From contig NZ_VIRM01000017.1 in NCBI RefSeq assembly GCF_006874475.1, positions 62,001-126,000 on the forward strand: a DNA stretch of 64,000 bases, given 5' to 3'. Every line of letters begins with the position of its first letter. Position 1 is the first letter of the stretch. A program made the position numbers and the translations under genes. Origin of the DNA: Microbispora hainanensis (lineage in GTDB: Bacteria; Actinomycetota; Actinomycetes; Streptosporangiales; Streptosporangiaceae). The notes beneath the pieces were generated by a model that searched no databases, had not been told where the DNA came from, and saw only the letters and a list, made by a program, of their open reading frames with translations. Positions 51,810-57,839 of the stretch are shown here, piece after piece.

Positions 51810-51912
51810 GTCGCCCGCGCCGCCGGTGTCGTCCGCGCCGCTCCTGCCCCCGTGAGTGTCGCCTACGCCGCCGGTGTCGCCCGCCTAAGCGTCGGCTACG
51901 CCGCCGGGGTCG
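51810..51912. repeat. Imperfect 22-bp repeats in a convergent gap
   Basis: Copies of a GTCGCCYRCGCCGCCGGTGT-type unit at 51810-51831, 51858-51879 and 51891-51912 fill the gap between the FAD oxidoreductase and the convergent two-TM gene, the last copy entering that gene's 3' end. Confidence 0.65.
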
Positions 51913-52876
51913 CGGCCTCCCACAGCTCGGCGAACCGTTCGGCCCGCTCGCGCACCCGCTCCTGGTCCTGTACCAAGACCGTGCTGTGGATCACCGGGGC
52001 GATGCCGTCGCCGACCTGGGGGGCGGGGTTGGACTCGTAGTAGACGACCCCGTCGAACAGGATGAAGTCGGACAGCGAGCCGCGCAGCAGAGGCGGCGCG
52101 TCGGAGAGCAGGAGCGTGCGCACCTCGATCCCGACCGTGGTCTGCCACTTCCACACCCGGCGGAACGCCTCGGAGTCGAGCCGCTCGGAACGATCCACCA
52201 CGAACACGCGGCGCACCCGCGCCCCACGCTGGACGAGGTCGCGCTGGAGCTTGACGTAGCGCTGCCCGAGGTCCGTGTGCCAGAAGCCGCCCTCGAACTC
52301 GGTGTCGCGGGCGTCCACACTGGTCAGGCTGATCGCGTCGAGACTGACCCGGGCGTTGCGCGCGAGCCCGAGCAGCCAGTCGCGGTCCTCGCCCTCGTAC
52401 AGTGCGTACCTGCCGTCGGACAGCTCGCCGAGGAACTTCGCCATCCGGGTGACCTCGTGGTGCACCAGGCTCTTGACGAGGCCGGGCATGTCGTCACGGA
52501 TCTTGGCGGCGTTCTGCACCAGCTCGGCCACACCCCTGGTCTCCAGCGCGGACATCTCCACGACGCCGAACAGCTTGCTCGCCTCGTTGATCTTGGAGAA
52601 GCTGTCGGCCACCAGGTTGTGGGTCTTCGTGTGCTGCCTGCGCTGCTCCTGCAGCACGGTTTCGAGCTGGTCGTCCACGTCCGCGAGGAACTGCACGACG
52701 AAGACGACGCCGCTGATGAACGTCGCGAGCAGCAGGCTCCACAGGTCCTCGTTCTGCCCGTGGATGAGCGCGTTGCTCACCAGATAGCTCACGCCGCCCA
52801 CGAGCACCGTCACGAGGACCTTGCGCACGATCCTCGGGACGAGCGACGGGGGCGGCTCGGGTGTTGCTTCGGTCAC
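51896..52876 (-). CDS. Two-TM protein with cytoplasmic C-terminal domain, last gene of SCO252x-like operon
   Basis: A 326-residue protein. Two hydrophobic helices (about 16-38, RKVLVTVLVGGVSYLVSNAL, and 45-65, LWSLLLATFISGVVFVVQFL) form a hairpin that places both ends in the cytoplasm. A helical, possibly coiled-coil region (70-140) leads to an alpha/beta domain (about 145-326) with GEDRDWLLGLARNARVSLDA, RVFVVDRSERLD and SDFILFDGVVYYES. I cannot name that domain; its alternating strands resemble a nuclease/PLD-like or receiver-like fold. The GTG overlaps the preceding stop (GTGA, 52873-52876), so it is coupled to the SCO2521-like gene and may be the membrane effector. Confidence 0.7.
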   Translation of the reverse strand: MTEATPEPPPSLVPRIVRKVLVTVLVGGVSYLVSNALIHGQNEDLWSLLLATFISGVVFVVQFLADVDDQLETVLQEQRRQHTKTHNLVADSFSKINEASKLFGVVEMSALETRGVAELVQNAAKIRDDMPGLVKSLVHHEVTRMAKFLGELSDGRYALYEGEDRDWLLGLARNARVSLDAISLTSVDARDTEFEGGFWHTDLGQRYVKLQRDLVQRGARVRRVFVVDRSERLDSEAFRRVWKWQTTVGIEVRTLLLSDAPPLLRGSLSDFILFDGVVYYESNPAPQVGDGIAPVIHSTVLVQDQERVRERAERFAELWEAATPAA

Positions 52877-53820
52877 GGTGACCTCCGTCCGGCTTCGGCG
52901 GTCGCACTCAGCAGGGCAAGGGTGTTCATCGCGACCTGGTCGCGGACCCGGTCGACCAGGGAACGCCACTGCCGGGTGAACCCCGGCCGCCGCTCCAGGC
53001 TCTCCCAGAACGGCGTCATCCACTCCTCCACCCGGGCGGCGGGCATCCACAGGTGCATGAGGTGGTCGATGGCCGGCGCCAGGCGGGCCACGGCCTGCGC
53101 GCCCGGAGTGCCGCCGATCCGCGCCCGCTCGACGATGACGAGCAGCGACGTCAGCAGCCAGTCGTGCGTCGCCAGGTCCTCGCACAGGTCGACCACGGCG
53201 GGGGTGAACGGGCCGGGATGCGTCAGGCGCAGCGTCCGCTCCTGCTCGGCGTGCAGGGTGAAGCGGATCGACGGCTCGCCGGTCTCGGCCACCCACCGCA
53301 GGTTCGTGCGCGGGATCTTGAAGGGGGCCCGGCGGTCCAGCAGCGGGGACTGCTGCACGAGGTCGAGGAAGCGGCCGCTGACGGCGCCCAGGTCGAGGCA
53401 GGCGCCGTCGGGGCGGCCGGGCACGGTGTCGCCGGTGAACCCTTCGGCGAGGTCGGCCGCCTTCACCTTGCCGAGGACCTCCACGACCCCCGGACGGGCC
53501 AGGTAGTGCGACCAGGGGAGCCTGCGGTCGGCCTCCGAGCGCACCACCCGGGCGTACGACGACCCCTGGGCCACCCGGCCCCCCGTCACCGCGCAGCGGG
53601 ACACCACCGTGCCGACGCCCCTCACCCGGGAGCGGGACGCGGTGGGCAGCGCGCAGTCCACGCCTGTCAGCCGCTCCGGCGACAGCGCGTGGACGATGGG
53701 ACGGCGGGAGACGCGCACGGTCTCCCCGGCCATGAGCCCGAGCACCTGACGGCACGTCGACTCGGAGATCTCCCCGGAGTTCTGCAGTAGCCCGGTGTGG
53801 ACCTCCCCCATCACCAGCAT
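52873..53820 (-). CDS. SCO2521-like family protein
   Basis: A 315-residue protein of unknown function. The N-terminus MLVMGEVHTGLLQNSGEI and segments VRVSRRPIVHALSPERLTGV and GVDCALP, VGTVVSRCAV match my memory of the SCO2521 family of S. coelicolor. Residues 1-90 look beta-rich and the C-terminal half helical. No catalytic motif is evident. ATG at 53820 follows GAGGA; it starts 26 bp after the SCO2522-like gene and its stop overlaps the next start. Confidence 0.68.
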   Translation of the reverse strand: MLVMGEVHTGLLQNSGEISESTCRQVLGLMAGETVRVSRRPIVHALSPERLTGVDCALPTASRSRVRGVGTVVSRCAVTGGRVAQGSSYARVVRSEADRRLPWSHYLARPGVVEVLGKVKAADLAEGFTGDTVPGRPDGACLDLGAVSGRFLDLVQQSPLLDRRAPFKIPRTNLRWVAETGEPSIRFTLHAEQERTLRLTHPGPFTPAVVDLCEDLATHDWLLTSLLVIVERARIGGTPGAQAVARLAPAIDHLMHLWMPAARVEEWMTPFWESLERRPGFTRQWRSLVDRVRDQVAMNTLALLSATAEAGRRSP

Positions 53821-53846
53821 CGGGCCGTCCTCACAATCGAAACCCC

Positions 53847-54803
53847 TCAGACGAAGACGTAGGAAATGCGGTCGACGAGCTCCTCTTCGAGCCGGATTCC
53901 CTCGCCCTCGCTCCGGGTGGCGACCTGCCGCAGGACCTCGTCGTCCACGGCGAACTGGCTCAGGATCGTGCGTACGGCCAGCTCGACGGGCAGGAACCGG
54001 GGGGAGAGGACGGACAGTGTGGTGTACGCGCTGAACGGCGCGGCCTGAGGGTTGAGCCGGACGACCGCGGGCAGTTCGTCCCAGTCGCGGGGCCAGCCGC
54101 CGTCGAGGGCGACCGGCGGGAGCGGCACGCGGCCGTCGCTGCGCAGCAGCCCCAGCCGCAGGAGCTGCCAGACGGCCGCGAGAAAGGGGCACGACCAGGT
54201 GCGCCGCGGCCCCTTCTCGTCCCACAACTCGACGTCCACGAAGATCGAGTGGCCGCGTTTGGCGTTCTGCGCGGGAGGCTCCCACGGCCGGGCCTTCCCC
54301 ATCGCCTGCAGCGGCGCGGTGCGGGGCGAGCGCGAGCCGTTGCACAGCCAGCCCGTCTCCTTCACCGGGGGGCGCGAGCCGTCGGTCTCCGGCGGCGGGT
54401 CGTCCACGAGCCGGTCCTCCACCAGCCGGGCCAGCTCGACGCCGCCCGATTGGGCGCAGGCCGACTCGCGGGCCAGGTAGTCGATGGTCAGGTCGTGCTC
54501 GGCCGCCGCCTCCAGGACCATCGGGACCAGCTCGGCCGGGGTGCTGAAGCGGCTGAAGTAGTCGTCCACGAGAAAGCAGGTGCTCACCCGGGCCCGGCCT
54601 CCCGGCACCCGCTCCTGCCAGAGGGAGCGGACCGTGGCGAGCCACGGCGCGACCCTGCGGAACTGCTCGCGCAACCGGTCGGGGCCCGCCTCGTAGTCCT
54701 CCATGTAGAGGTGCCCGAGCTCGACGGACACGTGGGAGAGGGGCACGGAGGCGATCCTGCGCTCGGCCGCCACCTCGCCGAACGTCGCGTGCACCGGCGT
54801 CAC
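53847..54803 (-). CDS. SCO2522-like family protein
   Basis: A 318-residue protein resembling the SCO2522 family. Notable segments are VSVELGHLYMEDYEAGP, TCFLVDDYFSRFSTPAELVP, IDYLARESACAQSGG and ETGWLCNGSRSP, with acidic and Cys residues that could be functional. Function unknown. The GTG overlaps the stop of the variant P-loop gene (GTGA, 54800-54803), so the two are translated together. Confidence 0.7.
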   Translation of the reverse strand: MTPVHATFGEVAAERRIASVPLSHVSVELGHLYMEDYEAGPDRLREQFRRVAPWLATVRSLWQERVPGGRARVSTCFLVDDYFSRFSTPAELVPMVLEAAAEHDLTIDYLARESACAQSGGVELARLVEDRLVDDPPPETDGSRPPVKETGWLCNGSRSPRTAPLQAMGKARPWEPPAQNAKRGHSIFVDVELWDEKGPRRTWSCPFLAAVWQLLRLGLLRSDGRVPLPPVALDGGWPRDWDELPAVVRLNPQAAPFSAYTTLSVLSPRFLPVELAVRTILSQFAVDDEVLRQVATRSEGEGIRLEEELVDRISYVFV

Positions 54804-55714
54804 AAGCCCTCCCACGCGCTGTCGTCGACGATCTTCTTGGCGAGCTCCTCGAACGCGGCGGCGGTCTCCGCGTTCGCGATCTTGCTGGCCAGCACGTCCT
54901 CGTCGGTGATCAGCTGCTCGCGCCACTGGAGGACCGGGTCCAGCGGGATCTTGCCGAGCATGGCCGTACGGCCGACGCCGTGGCGGCCGGCCAGCTCGCG
55001 CAGCTCGCTGTCGCACGCGCTCAGCCAGGCCCGCTGCTCGTCGCGCAGCCCGACGAGCTCCGCCGCGTCCGGTTCGAGCACGGCCGTGCGCACGAAGCGG
55101 ATGCGGTCGCGCAGGTCCTCGGCGTCGTGGCCGAACCGGATGCCGACGTCGAGCAGCCCGTCGGCGCCGGTGACGAGCCCGTCGGCCGCGATGATGTGCT
55201 GGCGCGTCCATCGATGGAAGACCAGCCACCGGAACGGGATCGCGGGCATCCGCACGGTCGCCGCCAGGACCAGCTCCGCGGTGAACGACCGGCCCGCGCT
55301 GACGTCGATCATGCAGAGGTCGAACTCCTCGTCCAGCCGCCCGAGCAGCTGGACGCAGCGGCCGACGACCTCGTCGGTGAGGGCCGACAGCTCGCCGCCG
55401 CCCTCGCTGCCCGGCAGCAGCACGAGCCGTCCCGCGCCGGGCGGGCGGGCCCGCAGCCCCTCGCGGTCGGACTCGGCCCACACGTCCACCCGCCGCGGCT
55501 GGGGGCACTCGCCCCGCAGGTAGTGGTGCAGGCCGTTCTCCCGGGTGCCGCGGGCGACCGAGCTGACGCTGAAGATGGCCCCCGCGGTCGGCGAGCCGAA
55601 GTCGAAGTCGAGATAGCAGACGTCGTTGCCCTGCAGGGCATGGCGGTACACGATGTTGGTGCCGGTGACCGAGCGCCCGGTGCCGCCCTTGTCGGAGATC
55701 GCGAAGACGAGCAT
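54800..55714 (-). CDS. SCO2523-like variant P-loop (MinD/ParA-type) ATPase
   Basis: A 304-residue SIMIBI-class P-loop protein. SDKGGTGRS (7-15) keeps the signature Lys9 but has Arg14 in place of the Walker A Lys; YLDFDFGSP is the switch-I-like A' motif and DLCMIDVSAGRS the Walker B/switch II. This matches the SCO2523 'variant P-loop' family. ATP binding probably persists through Lys9 and Arg14, but hydrolysis is uncertain. It may act as a switch positioning the partner proteins. ATG lies 1 bp after the SCO2524-like stop. Confidence 0.8.
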   Translation of the reverse strand: MLVFAISDKGGTGRSVTGTNIVYRHALQGNDVCYLDFDFGSPTAGAIFSVSSVARGTRENGLHHYLRGECPQPRRVDVWAESDREGLRARPPGAGRLVLLPGSEGGGELSALTDEVVGRCVQLLGRLDEEFDLCMIDVSAGRSFTAELVLAATVRMPAIPFRWLVFHRWTRQHIIAADGLVTGADGLLDVGIRFGHDAEDLRDRIRFVRTAVLEPDAAELVGLRDEQRAWLSACDSELRELAGRHGVGRTAMLGKIPLDPVLQWREQLITDEDVLASKIANAETAAAFEELAKKIVDDSAWEGL

Positions 55715-55715
55715 C

Positions 55716-57551
55716 TCAGATCGCCTCCGACGCGCTGTCGCGGGCGGCGGACAGCCGTTCGAGGCCGAGCAGGGCGTCGTTGATGAGCGCCTGGGCGGTG
55801 GCCGGCCGGTCGCTGACGATCGCCCTGGCCCGCTGCAGGGACGCCTGGATCGAGCGCAGCTTGGGCTGGATCGTCTGGCCGCCCACCAGGGGCCGGGTGA
55901 CCAGCTCCTGGTCGAGCAGGTGCTCGGCCTCCCCGAGCATCTGGAGCGCCAGCTCGACGAGCTGGGGGCTGCGCAGCGGCGGCTCCCCGCTGGAGGACGC
56001 GGCGGCGACGAGGAATTCGACGACCCGCTCGCTGAAATACCAGGACGGCTCCTCGTCGCGCGCCTCGATGTCGGCGAAGACGTTGCCCGGCTGGTCCCAC
56101 AGGCCGGCGGCCGGGCCGTCGGCGTGGCGGCGCAGCATGATGTGCCGCCAGATCTGGTCGGCGAGGGCGAGCAGCCGCTCGCGCATCCCGGTGTTCTGCG
56201 CGATGGAGGCGGCCCAGATGGTGCGTTTCAGCAGCGTGATGGCGAAGTCGGAGACGACCCAGAGCAGGTGGGGGCCGAGCGCGTCGCTGCCGTGCAGGTT
56301 GATCGGGACGCCGGGGGAGTGCATGAGCACGGGCGGGTCGCCCGGCACCGCCCTGCGGATGATCCTTGCGCGGATGGCCAGCTCCTCCAGCACGGCGGCG
56401 ACTCGGCCGAGGTCGACGTCGGCCGCCCGGTTGTTGACCAGGCTCTGCACGACCATGGCGGTGACGCCGAGGCTGTAGTAGTCCGACTCCTTCTCGTCGA
56501 CCGTCCGCCAGGGGATGTCCTCCAGCGGCCAGGTGCCCCGTCCGTACGTCGCGATGGTGCGCCAGTAGGACTGGGTGAGGTCCCAGCGGCGCTGGATGGC
56601 CTGGGCGAGGGTGATCTGGTCGTCGCTGAGCAGGCTCAGGACGCGGGTGCGGGCGGAGAACAGGTCGGCGATGCCGACGAGGGCGTTGACGGTGAAGTAG
56701 AGGAACGGCGTGTCGGCGGCCACGCCCATGGGCTGGGGACCGATGTCGAGCGGCGTGGCGATGTCGGGGGCGTCCTTCACGATGCCCCACGTCCATCCGC
56801 ACTCGAACAGCAGGTTCTCGTTGTCGAGGTCCACCTGGCTGCCCGACCCGATCGTCAGGTCGCGCAGGCCGGCGCGTACGGGCCGCAGCTCACGCCGCAG
56901 GTCTTCGAGCACGCGGCGGGTGGGCGCGCCGGTCTGGTTCACGGTGCGCAGCAGCGCGCGGCCCGCTGTGGATCCGGGGTCGAACGCGTTGACCGTGAAG
57001 CTGCGCAGCAGGCCCACCATCGCGGCCGACAGCCGCTTGCTGGCCAGGTCCTCCAGCTCGCGGATCTCGCGGCGGATCGACTCGCGCCGCACGCTCTGGC
57101 GGAAGACCTTCAGGAAGCCGAGTGTGCCGAGCGCGAGCGTGACCGACATCGAGAAGGAGTCGACCACGTCGAGCTGGAGCTGCTCGGGGGTGACCTTCGT
57201 CTCGTCGTCCAGCGGCCGGAAGTAGGTGCCGCCGGAGAACAGGGGCCGCCCGTCCTCTGCGGTGTAGGTGCGCAGATACTGGCCGATGACCCGCAGCATC
57301 AGCTTGGGGATCTCCACCGAGTCGCCCAGGACCGTGAGCGCGGCCAGCACGTCGTCGGCGGTCTCGTCCGGCGTGTCCAGGCGGAAGCCCGGCAGTTCGG
57401 AGGCCGGATACATGAAGCACAGAAGCTGCTCGGCGTCGGAGATGGAGTTCGACCCGTCGCGGCCGCCCCACATCCATACGTCGTCCCGGTAGGAGGCGCG
57501 CGCTGCCGCCTCCCACAGCTCCAGAAGCTGCTGTCGCGGCTGGAGTTTCAT
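55716..57551 (-). CDS. SCO2524-like family protein
   Basis: A 611-residue, largely helical cytosolic protein. The N-terminus MKLQPRQQLLELWEAAARAS, then WMWGGRDGSNSISDAEQLLC and FMYPASELPGFRLDTPDETA match the SCO2524 family as I know it. Later segments (WPLEDIPWRTVDEKESDYYS, EEPSWYFSERVVEFLVAAAS) suggest an alpha/alpha-toroid-like repeat. No catalytic signature recognised. ATG at 57551 follows AGAGGG. First gene of the five-gene operon; the promoter should lie in 57552-57839. Confidence 0.75.
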   Translation of the reverse strand: MKLQPRQQLLELWEAAARASYRDDVWMWGGRDGSNSISDAEQLLCFMYPASELPGFRLDTPDETADDVLAALTVLGDSVEIPKLMLRVIGQYLRTYTAEDGRPLFSGGTYFRPLDDETKVTPEQLQLDVVDSFSMSVTLALGTLGFLKVFRQSVRRESIRREIRELEDLASKRLSAAMVGLLRSFTVNAFDPGSTAGRALLRTVNQTGAPTRRVLEDLRRELRPVRAGLRDLTIGSGSQVDLDNENLLFECGWTWGIVKDAPDIATPLDIGPQPMGVAADTPFLYFTVNALVGIADLFSARTRVLSLLSDDQITLAQAIQRRWDLTQSYWRTIATYGRGTWPLEDIPWRTVDEKESDYYSLGVTAMVVQSLVNNRAADVDLGRVAAVLEELAIRARIIRRAVPGDPPVLMHSPGVPINLHGSDALGPHLLWVVSDFAITLLKRTIWAASIAQNTGMRERLLALADQIWRHIMLRRHADGPAAGLWDQPGNVFADIEARDEEPSWYFSERVVEFLVAAASSSGEPPLRSPQLVELALQMLGEAEHLLDQELVTRPLVGGQTIQPKLRSIQASLQRARAIVSDRPATAQALINDALLGLERLSAARDSASEAI

Positions 57552-57839
57552 CCGTGGCCCTCTCTGCGCTGCGCCGTGCGCGCCTTCTTCCACGCTTCCG
57601 TGGAGAAAAGCACGCTCGTGTGGCCGGGCGGGACCGAGGCCGGGGTCCCCAGACCCTCCCTAGGGGTTTCCTTTTCCGATTCAGGTGGAGACGGAACCAC
57701 CACAACCCTTATACCATTGGATTCCTGCTCCGTCGCCTGGACCATCAGTGGTATTTCGTGCACCGCCTGGTTGTCGTGATTGGAGAGATACCACAGAGAA
57801 AAACAGACATATATGTCCTAAGTCTGAAAGATATTTGAA
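57552..57839. promoter_or_regulatory. Divergent promoter region with AT-rich palindromes
   Basis: 288 bp between the SCO252x-like operon and the hydroxyacid dehydrogenase. It contains ATACCATTG (57711-57719) against CAGTGGTAT (57746-57754), an 8/9 inverted repeat, a related GATACCAC near 57787, and the perfect 12-bp palindrome GACATATATGTC (57806-57817) 22 bp upstream of the dehydrogenase ATG. This AT-rich stretch is exceptional here. Confidence 0.5.

Follow-up and report, generated by a model that had tools for sequence, protein, structure and literature searches.

The window analysed here, a stretch of 64,000 nucleotides from Microbispora hainanensis, carries a locus of five minus-strand genes. 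The first gene of the operon (55716..57551) codes for a SCO2524 family protein (611 aa; NF040567.1, 926.6 bits, cut-off 300). After a gap of 1 bp, it is followed by the gene (54800..55714) for a SCO2523 family protein, a MinD/Mrp-like protein with a variant P-loop (304 aa; NF040564.1, 502.3 bits, cut-off 200). This gene has a GTGA overlap with that for a SCO2522 family protein (53847..54803, 318 aa; NF040566.1, 466.2 bits, cut-off 200). A 26-bp gap separates the latter from the gene for a SCO2521 family protein (52873..53820, 315 aa; NF040565.1, 409.8 bits, cut-off 150), and a second GTGA overlap leads to the last gene (51896..52876, 326 aa). Its product, a two-TM protein referred to as TM2, is predicted from a structural model and Foldseek to have a two-TM hairpin, a helical stalk and a phospholipase-D (PLD)-like pseudo-enzyme domain (ca. 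residues 155-321). The layout and spacings given in the first-pass annotation agree with the sequence, and its family names for the four core proteins are borne out by scores far above the curated NCBIfam cut-offs over nearly the full length. TM2 has no NCBIfam match near any cut-off. A Kyte-Doolittle scan (19-residue window, mean threshold 1.5) finds two hydrophobic segments in TM2 (from residues 20 and 47), none in SCO2521, SCO2522 and SCO2523, and a single marginal one in SCO2524 (residue 129, mean 1.53).

NCBIfam defines a set SCO2521-2525 (NF040565, NF040566, NF040564, NF040567 and NF040568), of which Microbispora has four members in the usual order. It differs from this set in that the genome has no SCO2525 match and in the added, near-constant member TM2. 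The descriptions of the five models give no function. That no role is established, as claimed previously, holds insofar as no functional explanation for the SCO2521-2524 gene set was found in the literature searched. It has to be qualified in that the accessible part of PMC11472566 counts the S. coelicolor operon sco2521-sco2526 among HupS-controlled genes and describes SCO2525 as necessary for normal growth (via Gehring 2004); the accessible parts of PMC11472566 and PMC6344877 together assign SCO2525 such a necessity or a morphogenetic role.

The complete four-gene core is present in 113 of the 117 loci retrieved via SCO2523, so that the grouping of these genes is not due to chance. SCO2523 homologs in other genomes thus sit with the remaining core genes, as had been expected, and the Microbispora core gene order is that of most loci. 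Presence counts are HMM matches on stop-to-stop frames, and the 117 loci include near-duplicates (same species within L032-L067 and L068-L147), which were counted separately. Our in-house procedure for picking ORFs assigns wrong labels to a few genes. The second locus set represents the best 80 of 432 SCO2523 loci; all alignments other than that of SCO2523 with 31 rows (the window plus 30 of the 36 loci of the first set) are selections from these 80, together with the window (except one, A6).

The motif SDKGGTGRS, residues 7-15 of the SCO2523-like protein, carries Arg where the Walker A Lys would stand. This variant P-loop, recognised already in the first-pass annotation, is not a peculiarity of the window: R14, at the P-loop Lys position, is invariant in all 31 aligned proteins, as is K9, the Lys of the KGG triplet. 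The latter is the deviant Walker A signature of MinD/ParA-type ATPases. The protein thus has the signature Lys of these ATPases and lacks the P-loop Lys preceding S/T. Among PDB entries, its profile matches the N-termini of Mrp/MinD proteins (best 8.6e-6), spanning only the first ca. 70 residues. Profiles of SCO2521, SCO2524 (three matches, best E 0.18) and TM2 have only chance-level matches to PDB, and that of SCO2522 has none. A predicted model of SCO2522 (pLDDT 86.8, pTM 0.85) likewise has no PDB match at E<=0.001. This protein has many invariant polar residues (D80, D81, D108, R112, E113, N155, R158, H185 and D190 in 50 aligned rows). Purifying selection acts on each of the five genes among 12 Microbispora rows (median pN/pS 0.20-0.31, highest for TM2); there is no sign of diversifying selection in any of them, and a test for faster or positive selection on TM2 gave no support.

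TM2 is encoded directly downstream of SCO2521 and on the same strand in 87 of the 94 loci with both placed; in 73 of these 87, the genes overlap or are at most 20 bp apart (script-chosen starts). The two remain paired even where they are inverted relative to SCO2524-2522. TM2 and SCO2521 form one unit. When 394 genomes were searched (best 5 candidates per genome scored; the large genome searches were generally confined to the best few), full-length TM2 (at least 140 bits) was found in 32 of 37 SCO2523-positive and in none of 357 SCO2523-negative genomes. TM2 is a near-constant extra member of the SCO2521-2524 set, and the association proposed previously is upheld, no full-length copy being found in genomes devoid of SCO2523.

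In the AlphaFold2 model of TM2 (pLDDT 83.8, pTM 0.65), a membrane hairpin is followed by a helical stalk and the PLD-like domain. The hairpin supports the earlier view of TM2 as the membrane partner, and the C-terminal part, for which structure prediction had been suggested, is modelled as a PLD-like fold from about residue 155 to 321. At E<=0.001, Foldseek finds 91 matches in PDB; the 50 listed are TrmBL2, FAM83 and PLD-type proteins (TrmBL2 9.8e-9, with rmsd values of 11-17; Nuc 3.4e-7, TMt 0.71). We take the TrmB domain to be PLD-like and the FAM83 domain (DUF1669) to be a dead PLD. HKD is the catalytic motif of phospholipase D enzymes. With the motif strand placed by eye, HxKx4D occurs in only one of 56 TM2 rows (L133) and is absent from the window copy and 54 others; D270, F274, D275 and Y280 are invariant across the 56 rows. 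The C-terminal domain is thus predicted to have a PLD-like fold in which the HKD motif is not conserved. Pfam DUF6879 is detected in 53 of the 56 rows at E<=0.01 (best 1.8e-11), the window copy scoring 21.6, slightly below the gathering score of 23.9. Pfam also contains the SLATT (2TM effector) models; none of them appears in the family lists of TM2 and the 56 rows. In L133, an apparent SCO2521-TM2 fusion was discarded: the joined frame crosses a scaffold gap of N and so is no evidence of fusion. DUF6879 paralogs elsewhere in the same genome adjoin genes that by eye resemble ThiF and peptidases.

The SCO2525 methyltransferase is indeed a frequent companion, being present in 66 of the 117 loci and in 24 of the 37 SCO2523-positive genomes. 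It had been proposed that the two-TM protein sits in the place of this methyltransferase. This does not hold: the methyltransferase gene is located upstream of SCO2524 (within 300 bp in 61 of the 66 loci), TM2 is mostly found beside SCO2521, and both occur together in 61 of the 117 loci, so that TM2 is ruled out as a stand-in. SCO2525 has no match in the window genome or in five other Microbispora genomes (best 6 candidates per genome scored), and it is missing from 51 of the 117 loci, a few of which end at contig ends. GNAT-like genes are found in 31 of the 117 loci; the label GNAT for these two acetyltransferase-like families and the name DUF397 are presumptive.

At nine loci, a gene for a DUF4062-NACHT-HEAT protein (one copy degraded) is divergent from SCO2521, and TM2 is absent from all nine. 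Plantactinospora is represented among the genomes with such a gene. The stretch SITE(L/A)EY is retained in all eight non-degraded copies and the searched P-loop pattern in seven of them. These loci are confined to one clade of the SCO2523 tree, a quick tree without bootstrap and with a long-branch warning, computed from the 110 loci with distinct SCO2523 proteins among the 113 having both SCO2523 and SCO2522. In L112 and L129, the gene beside SCO2521 codes for a different membrane protein (37% identity to each other, 3e-47), which in L112 is unrelated to the TM2 profile. The tally is two clade-level cases and a doubtful single one; because one type is restricted to one clade and the other to one pair of loci, exchange events have been few. 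In L084 alone, a convergent NACHT-FGE-sulfatase gene adjoins SCO2521 and may be a chance neighbour. A gene neighbouring the L132 cluster appears by eye to code for a calcineurin-NACHT-WD40-like protein; it matches our local NACHT profile, which was built with this very protein.

In one genus, the cluster is carried by 29 of 150 genomes and missing in 121. In a choice of 20 genomes of this genus, all 10 carriers have the cluster within the same flank-to-flank interval, and all 10 non-carriers have the interval but no cluster. The cluster thus shows presence/absence at a fixed site, which is often empty. A few locus pairs show in-place cassette replacement: between L060 and L053 or L054 (same genus code), the flank median is 94-95% and the core 43-44%; for L111 and L112, the values are 86 and 61. 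These pairs are outliers among 466 flank-sharing pairs, in which the core exceeds the flanks in conservation by a median of 4.6 points. Searches at E 1e-5 found no SCO2523 relatives in phages or among the plasmids of PLSDB; the record title of one locus (L091) contains the word "plasmid". The scanned neighbourhood consists of ordinary genes for metabolism, transport and regulation (the flank genes presumably leuA-like and uppS-like) and is not a defence island.

Among known systems, the NTP-dependent conflict systems of multicellular bacteria (Kaur et al. 2020, PMC7159879) share several traits with the cluster. According to the accessible part of that paper, they occur in actinobacteria, have inactive MinD/ParA-like domains as components, include NACHT and FGS domains in some loci and use variable effector modules, a trait that the cluster may share; the SCO2521-2524 families are not mentioned there. 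The five window proteins differ in having no recognised MoxR, vWA, VMAP or GAP1, and no MoxR/vWA or GTPase core domain is listed for them by NCBIfam or Pfam. DUF4062 is described, in the accessible part of a preprint (PMC13174449), as a TIR-like NADase in antiphage abortive infection (Swarozyc). The likeness lies in the nine related loci, where it is encoded beside SCO2521. As differences, the proteins of these loci have NACHT and HEAT domains in addition and are encoded together with SCO2521-2524, and DUF4062 is missing from the window cluster. TM2 resembles PLD-fold pseudo-enzymes and regulators (TrmBL2, FAM83) and DUF6879 proteins, and differs in its hairpin and stalk. By the PADLOC models, none of the five proteins qualifies as an anti-phage component, a single weak P-loop match (7e-4) being obtained.

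We tentatively propose, at somewhat less than an even chance, that the operon encodes a nucleotide-switched, membrane-associated surveillance complex for conflict or self-recognition, whose output module can be exchanged. That a complex forms and that a nucleotide switches it is what we infer, as are its topology, trigger and output. SCO2523 would probably bind nucleotide and hydrolyse it poorly or not at all, because the P-loop Lys is missing, and could, in concert with SCO2524 and SCO2522, sense a state or switch assembly. SCO2521 would be the adaptor to the output module, which in Microbispora may be TM2, anchored by its hairpin, with the pseudo-PLD domain held on its stalk in the cytoplasm to receive a ligand or the core complex. 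In other lineages, SCO2521 would be partnered by the unrelated membrane protein or by the DUF4062-NACHT-HEAT protein, which is predicted to be a TIR-like NADase receptor. Upon detection of a trigger by the core, the output module might alter the membrane, or kill or arrest the cell. The proposal is favoured by the pairing of SCO2521 with TM2, the restriction of full-length TM2 to SCO2523-positive genomes, the apparent exchange of modules in two clades, the abortive-infection role reported for DUF4062, in-place replacement, the patchy occupation of one site and the inactive MinD/ParA-like domains described for conflict systems. The gene linkage, the invariant Arg and the predicted PLD-like fold are further observations made here. 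The near-silence of PADLOC, the lack of plasmid or phage relatives, the ordinary neighbours, the few exchange events, purifying selection in Microbispora, the well-conserved core and the reported growth link of SCO2525 speak against it. Among the soil actinobacteria that have such an operon, swapping and replacement of parts between relatives resembles the behaviour of immune or self-recognition genes. It is tempting to go further, more tentatively still, and to regard SCO2521-2524 as the central part of a hitherto undescribed system of immunity or kin recognition in actinobacteria, with a pseudo-MinD switch, whole-cassette replacement at one chromosomal site and interchangeable outputs via SCO2521 (a pseudo-PLD in the membrane, a TIR-like NADase-NACHT receptor or other membrane proteins). 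If surveillance is the function, the growth-linked S. coelicolor gene SCO2525 would turn out to be part of a system of immunity or self-recognition that is switched by a Lys-less MinD-like protein. The replaced cassettes provide natural chimeras for specificity tests. The NCBI-named gene set gains a defined extra component, TM2, with a predicted fold.

The main rival, possible if doubtful, is a membrane-docked signalling complex for growth or development without a conflict role: the core would sense an internal state, methyltransferase and GNAT would modify a component, and TM2 would tie the complex to the membrane. HupS control of the operon and the growth or morphogenetic role of SCO2525, as given in the accessible parts of PMC11472566 and PMC6344877, fit this reading, as do purifying selection on the five Microbispora genes and a core no less conserved than its flanks (median of 466 pairs). 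The absence of the cluster from 121 of 150 genomes of one genus and of SCO2525 from all six Microbispora genomes does not, and both cassette replacement between 94-95% identical flanks and DUF4062-NACHT genes in place of TM2 would be unusual for a developmental switch. The invariant polar residues of SCO2522 (50 rows) might instead mark an enzyme of small-molecule or peptide modification, with SCO2525 and GNATs tailoring the product and the others acting as carriers or regulators. We consider this unlikely: methyltransferase (66 of 117 loci), GNAT-like genes (31 of 117) and the DUF6879 paralogs beside presumed ThiF-like and peptidase-like genes point in this direction, but the tailoring genes look dispensable, because 51 of 117 loci, a few at contig ends, have no methyltransferase. 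That TM2 positions a MinD system for partition or division, as the Mrp/MinD matches of SCO2523 suggest, is very improbable, given that these matches cover only the first ca. 70 residues, that the distribution is patchy and that the P-loop Lys is replaced in 31 of 31 aligned proteins.

The five minus-strand genes of the window encode four core proteins (SCO2524, SCO2523, SCO2522 and SCO2521) and a two-TM protein of 326 aa (TM2; 51896-52876, minus strand). Re-reading of the window bore out the spacing given in the first-pass annotation (a 1-bp gap, two GTGA overlaps and a 26-bp gap), and its family names hold, since all four core proteins are full-length NCBIfam members upon HMM search. No NCBIfam model scores TM2 anywhere near its cut-off, and Pfam DUF6879 falls slightly short of its gathering score. 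The genome (G000) has a single full-length SCO2523, and a second match to the profile (22.7 bits) lies within a 1317-aa frame elsewhere. In many genomes this profile also matches short stretches within open frames of about 1300-1700 aa (e.g. G000:C205:1351-1479), which may be NCBIfam's KGGVGR AAA proteins.

Within the window's class, 37 of 394 genomes have an SCO2523 that scores over the cut-off. A sample of 296 genomes from across the phylum yielded SCO2522 in five, each of them from this class. We annotated 117 loci with local profiles: the window, 36 other loci from the class and the best 80 of 432 matches in named genomes, among which Microbispora catharanthi (98% identity) and Microbispora rosea (97%) have the nearest SCO2523 relatives. 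The core is complete in 113 loci. Of the other four, L062 and L077 run off the ends of their contigs, L133 is interrupted by a scaffold gap and does contain SCO2521, and L123 lacks SCO2522 and SCO2521 in its 20.9 kb of sequence. TM2 is found at 95 of the 117 loci, the SCO2525-type methyltransferase at 66 (both of two tested exceed the NF040568 cut-off), and both at 61. The methyltransferase is frequent company for the set, in line with the first-pass annotation. Extra copies of TM2, SCO2525 or SCO2524 adjoin the main cluster in L121, L122, L127, L145 and others (Actinoplanes-like, Catenuloplanes).

TM2 had been described as sitting in the methyltransferase's place, which is not correct. In 61 of the 66 loci that have it, the methyltransferase gene lies no more than 300 bp upstream of SCO2524. 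SCO2521 and TM2 can both be placed at 94 loci, and at 87 of them TM2 follows SCO2521 directly and in the same orientation; 73 of these 87 pairs overlap or lie at most 20 bp apart (script-chosen starts). TM2 is elsewhere within the cluster in four loci (L049, L063, L064 and L067); L097 has the two genes adjacent by HMM matches, which the gene-end rule did not catch, L121 has them adjoining in reversed order, and L133 has its scaffold gap. In the window's operon the methyltransferase is missing at one end, and TM2, a near-constant partner, sits at the other. A profile search found no SCO2525-type methyltransferase in any of six Microbispora genomes. In a quick tree of 110 loci with different SCO2523 proteins (without bootstrap, with a long-branch warning), this absence spans a single 30-row clade around Microbispora; overall, presence/absence requires at least seven changes.

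Linkage extends to whole genomes, with the best 5 or 6 candidates scored per genome (5 for TM2, 6 for the methyltransferase). The TM2 profile has matches in 38 of the 394 genomes (E<=0.001); those of at least 140 bits are in 32 genomes, every one among the 37 with SCO2523. In the remaining six genomes, which have no SCO2523 over the cut-off, the matches are weak or short, the best reaching 46 bits (5.5e-12). TM2 is missing from five genomes with SCO2523. Of the 30 genomes matched by the methyltransferase profile, 24 score above 200 bits and all of these have SCO2523; the other six score 134-161 bits and are outside the SCO2523 set.

TM2 is absent from 22 of the 117 loci, including the cut-short L077. 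Nine of these carry a DUF4062-NACHT-HEAT gene (a predicted TIR-like NADase receptor gene) divergent from SCO2521: between SCO2522 and SCO2521 in L101-L105 and L110 (L101:11912-16264, minus strand), on the other side of SCO2521 in L107 (13099-17454, plus strand) and L113, and degraded in L109. Pfam was run on the genes of L101, L107 and L109 and returned DUF4062 for the first two; the remaining assignments rest on local profiles from L101, L107, L084 and L132. SITE(L/A)EY is present in all eight non-degraded copies, and the searched P-loop pattern in seven (absent from L104). From the available text of a preprint on DUF4062 (PMC13174449), we infer that the Glu of this motif may be the catalytic residue. 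NACHT-like matches occur at 11 of the 117 loci, none with TM2, the two beyond the nine being L084 (NACHT-FGE by Pfam, convergent) and L132 (upstream neighbours). In L112 and L129 the TM2 position is occupied by another protein (37% mutual identity, 3e-47) that has no Pfam or NCBIfam match and, as tested for L112, is unrelated to the TM2 profile (probability 0.04%). Each copy has two hydrophobic segments by scan; the L129 pair is not a hairpin. Nothing was recognised in place of TM2 at the other nine loci. In the tree, the DUF4062 loci and L115, which has neither DUF4062 gene nor TM2, form a single clade of ten, and L112/L129 pair with support 86. The tree thus shows two exchanges and a doubtful third, which are few events.

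The cluster is patchy at a fixed site. SCO2523 is present in 29 of 150 genomes of the genus of G133. From assemblies with few contigs we chose 10 genomes that carry it and 10 that do not. All 10 carriers have the cluster between leuA-like and uppS-like genes (named by eye; interval 11-39 kb), and all 10 non-carriers have the same interval (1.7-27 kb) without it. Across 466 flank-sharing locus pairs, conservation of the core exceeds that of the flanks by a median of 4.6 points, but a few pairs are outliers. L060 and L053/L054 share a genus code and their chromosomal surroundings; their flanks have a median of 94-95% identity versus 43-44% for the core (core genes 41-55%), and L060 has no detected TM2 or SCO2525. 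Other outlier pairs are L051/L063 (flanks 87% versus core 51%), L038/L059 (91% versus 59%) and L111/L112 (86% versus 61%). We read these few pairs as probable in-place cassette replacement.

By sequence, SCO2521, SCO2522, SCO2524 and TM2 (best E 0.12) have no significant relative in PDB. The SCO2523 profile hits Mrp/MinD structures over their first ~70 residues (best 8.6e-6); the Arg noted in its variant P-loop is confirmed as R14 in all 31 aligned sequences, and K9 is equally invariant. An SCO2522 model (pLDDT 86.8, pTM 0.85) gave 0 PDB matches at E<=0.001. The AlphaFold2 model of TM2 (56 sequences; pLDDT 83.8, pTM 0.65) predicts a hairpin of helices 13-37 and 43-108, the second running on to form a stalk, followed by an alpha/beta domain that starts near residue 155. 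Foldseek returned TrmBL2 (9.8e-9, rmsd 11 and more), Zucchini (2.7e-7), Nuc (3.4e-7, TM-score 0.71 on target) and FAM83 domains. HxKx4D is present in one of the 56 rows (L133), D270, F274, D275 and Y280 are invariant in all 56, and 53 match DUF6879 (best 1.8e-11). Within the first 110 residues (threshold 1.3), 43 rows have two hydrophobic segments, 12 have one and one has three.

Because SCO2521 and TM2 pair, the module is exchanged in some loci, and the cluster is patchy at a fixed site and in a few locus pairs probably replaced in place, we tentatively consider the operon a putative surveillance complex of the conflict or self-recognition type, at somewhat below even probability. SCO2523 would act as a pseudo-MinD switch forming a sensor core with SCO2524 and SCO2522, SCO2521 might be the adaptor, and TM2 a membrane-bound receiver or effector. 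A role in developmental signalling is nearly as likely: between them, two papers (PMC11472566, PMC6344877) list the Streptomyces coelicolor operon as HupS-controlled and call SCO2525 necessary for normal growth or give it a morphogenetic role. A role in conflict is opposed by the small number of exchanges and by ordinary neighbours. Pfam finds ordinary domains in eight of ten neighbouring frames and none in two: GH43, short-chain dehydrogenase and FAD oxidoreductase on one side, and 2-hydroxyacid dehydrogenase, TPP enzyme, MFS transporter, LysR regulator and histidine kinase on the other. Also counting against conflict are purifying selection in Microbispora, a PADLOC run on the five proteins that gave nothing beyond one weak P-loop match, and the lack of copies in the plasmid and phage collections that were searched. 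Literature searches, reaching few subscription papers, found no paper on DUF6879 and, in the partial texts returned, no description of SCO2521-SCO2525 as a system; matches listed for KGGVGR/FxSxx-COOH and variant P-loops hold nothing on this SCO2521-2524 cluster.

Neither tRNA genes nor Rfam families at gathering score were found in the 64-kb window. The window's genome has four stand-alone DUF6879 genes over the cut-off (L183, L184; contigs C203, C90), and some such genes adjoin ThiF-like and membrane-peptidase-like genes (named by eye). Upstream of SCO2524, AATGGTATAAGG (57707-57718) is conserved in the window, L075, L076 and L080, and is possibly the operon promoter, with a leader of about 150 bases. 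The palindrome GACATATATGTC occurs once in the window (57806-57817), 5' of the divergent 2-hydroxyacid dehydrogenase gene, and is present in five of eight inspected Microbispora loci.
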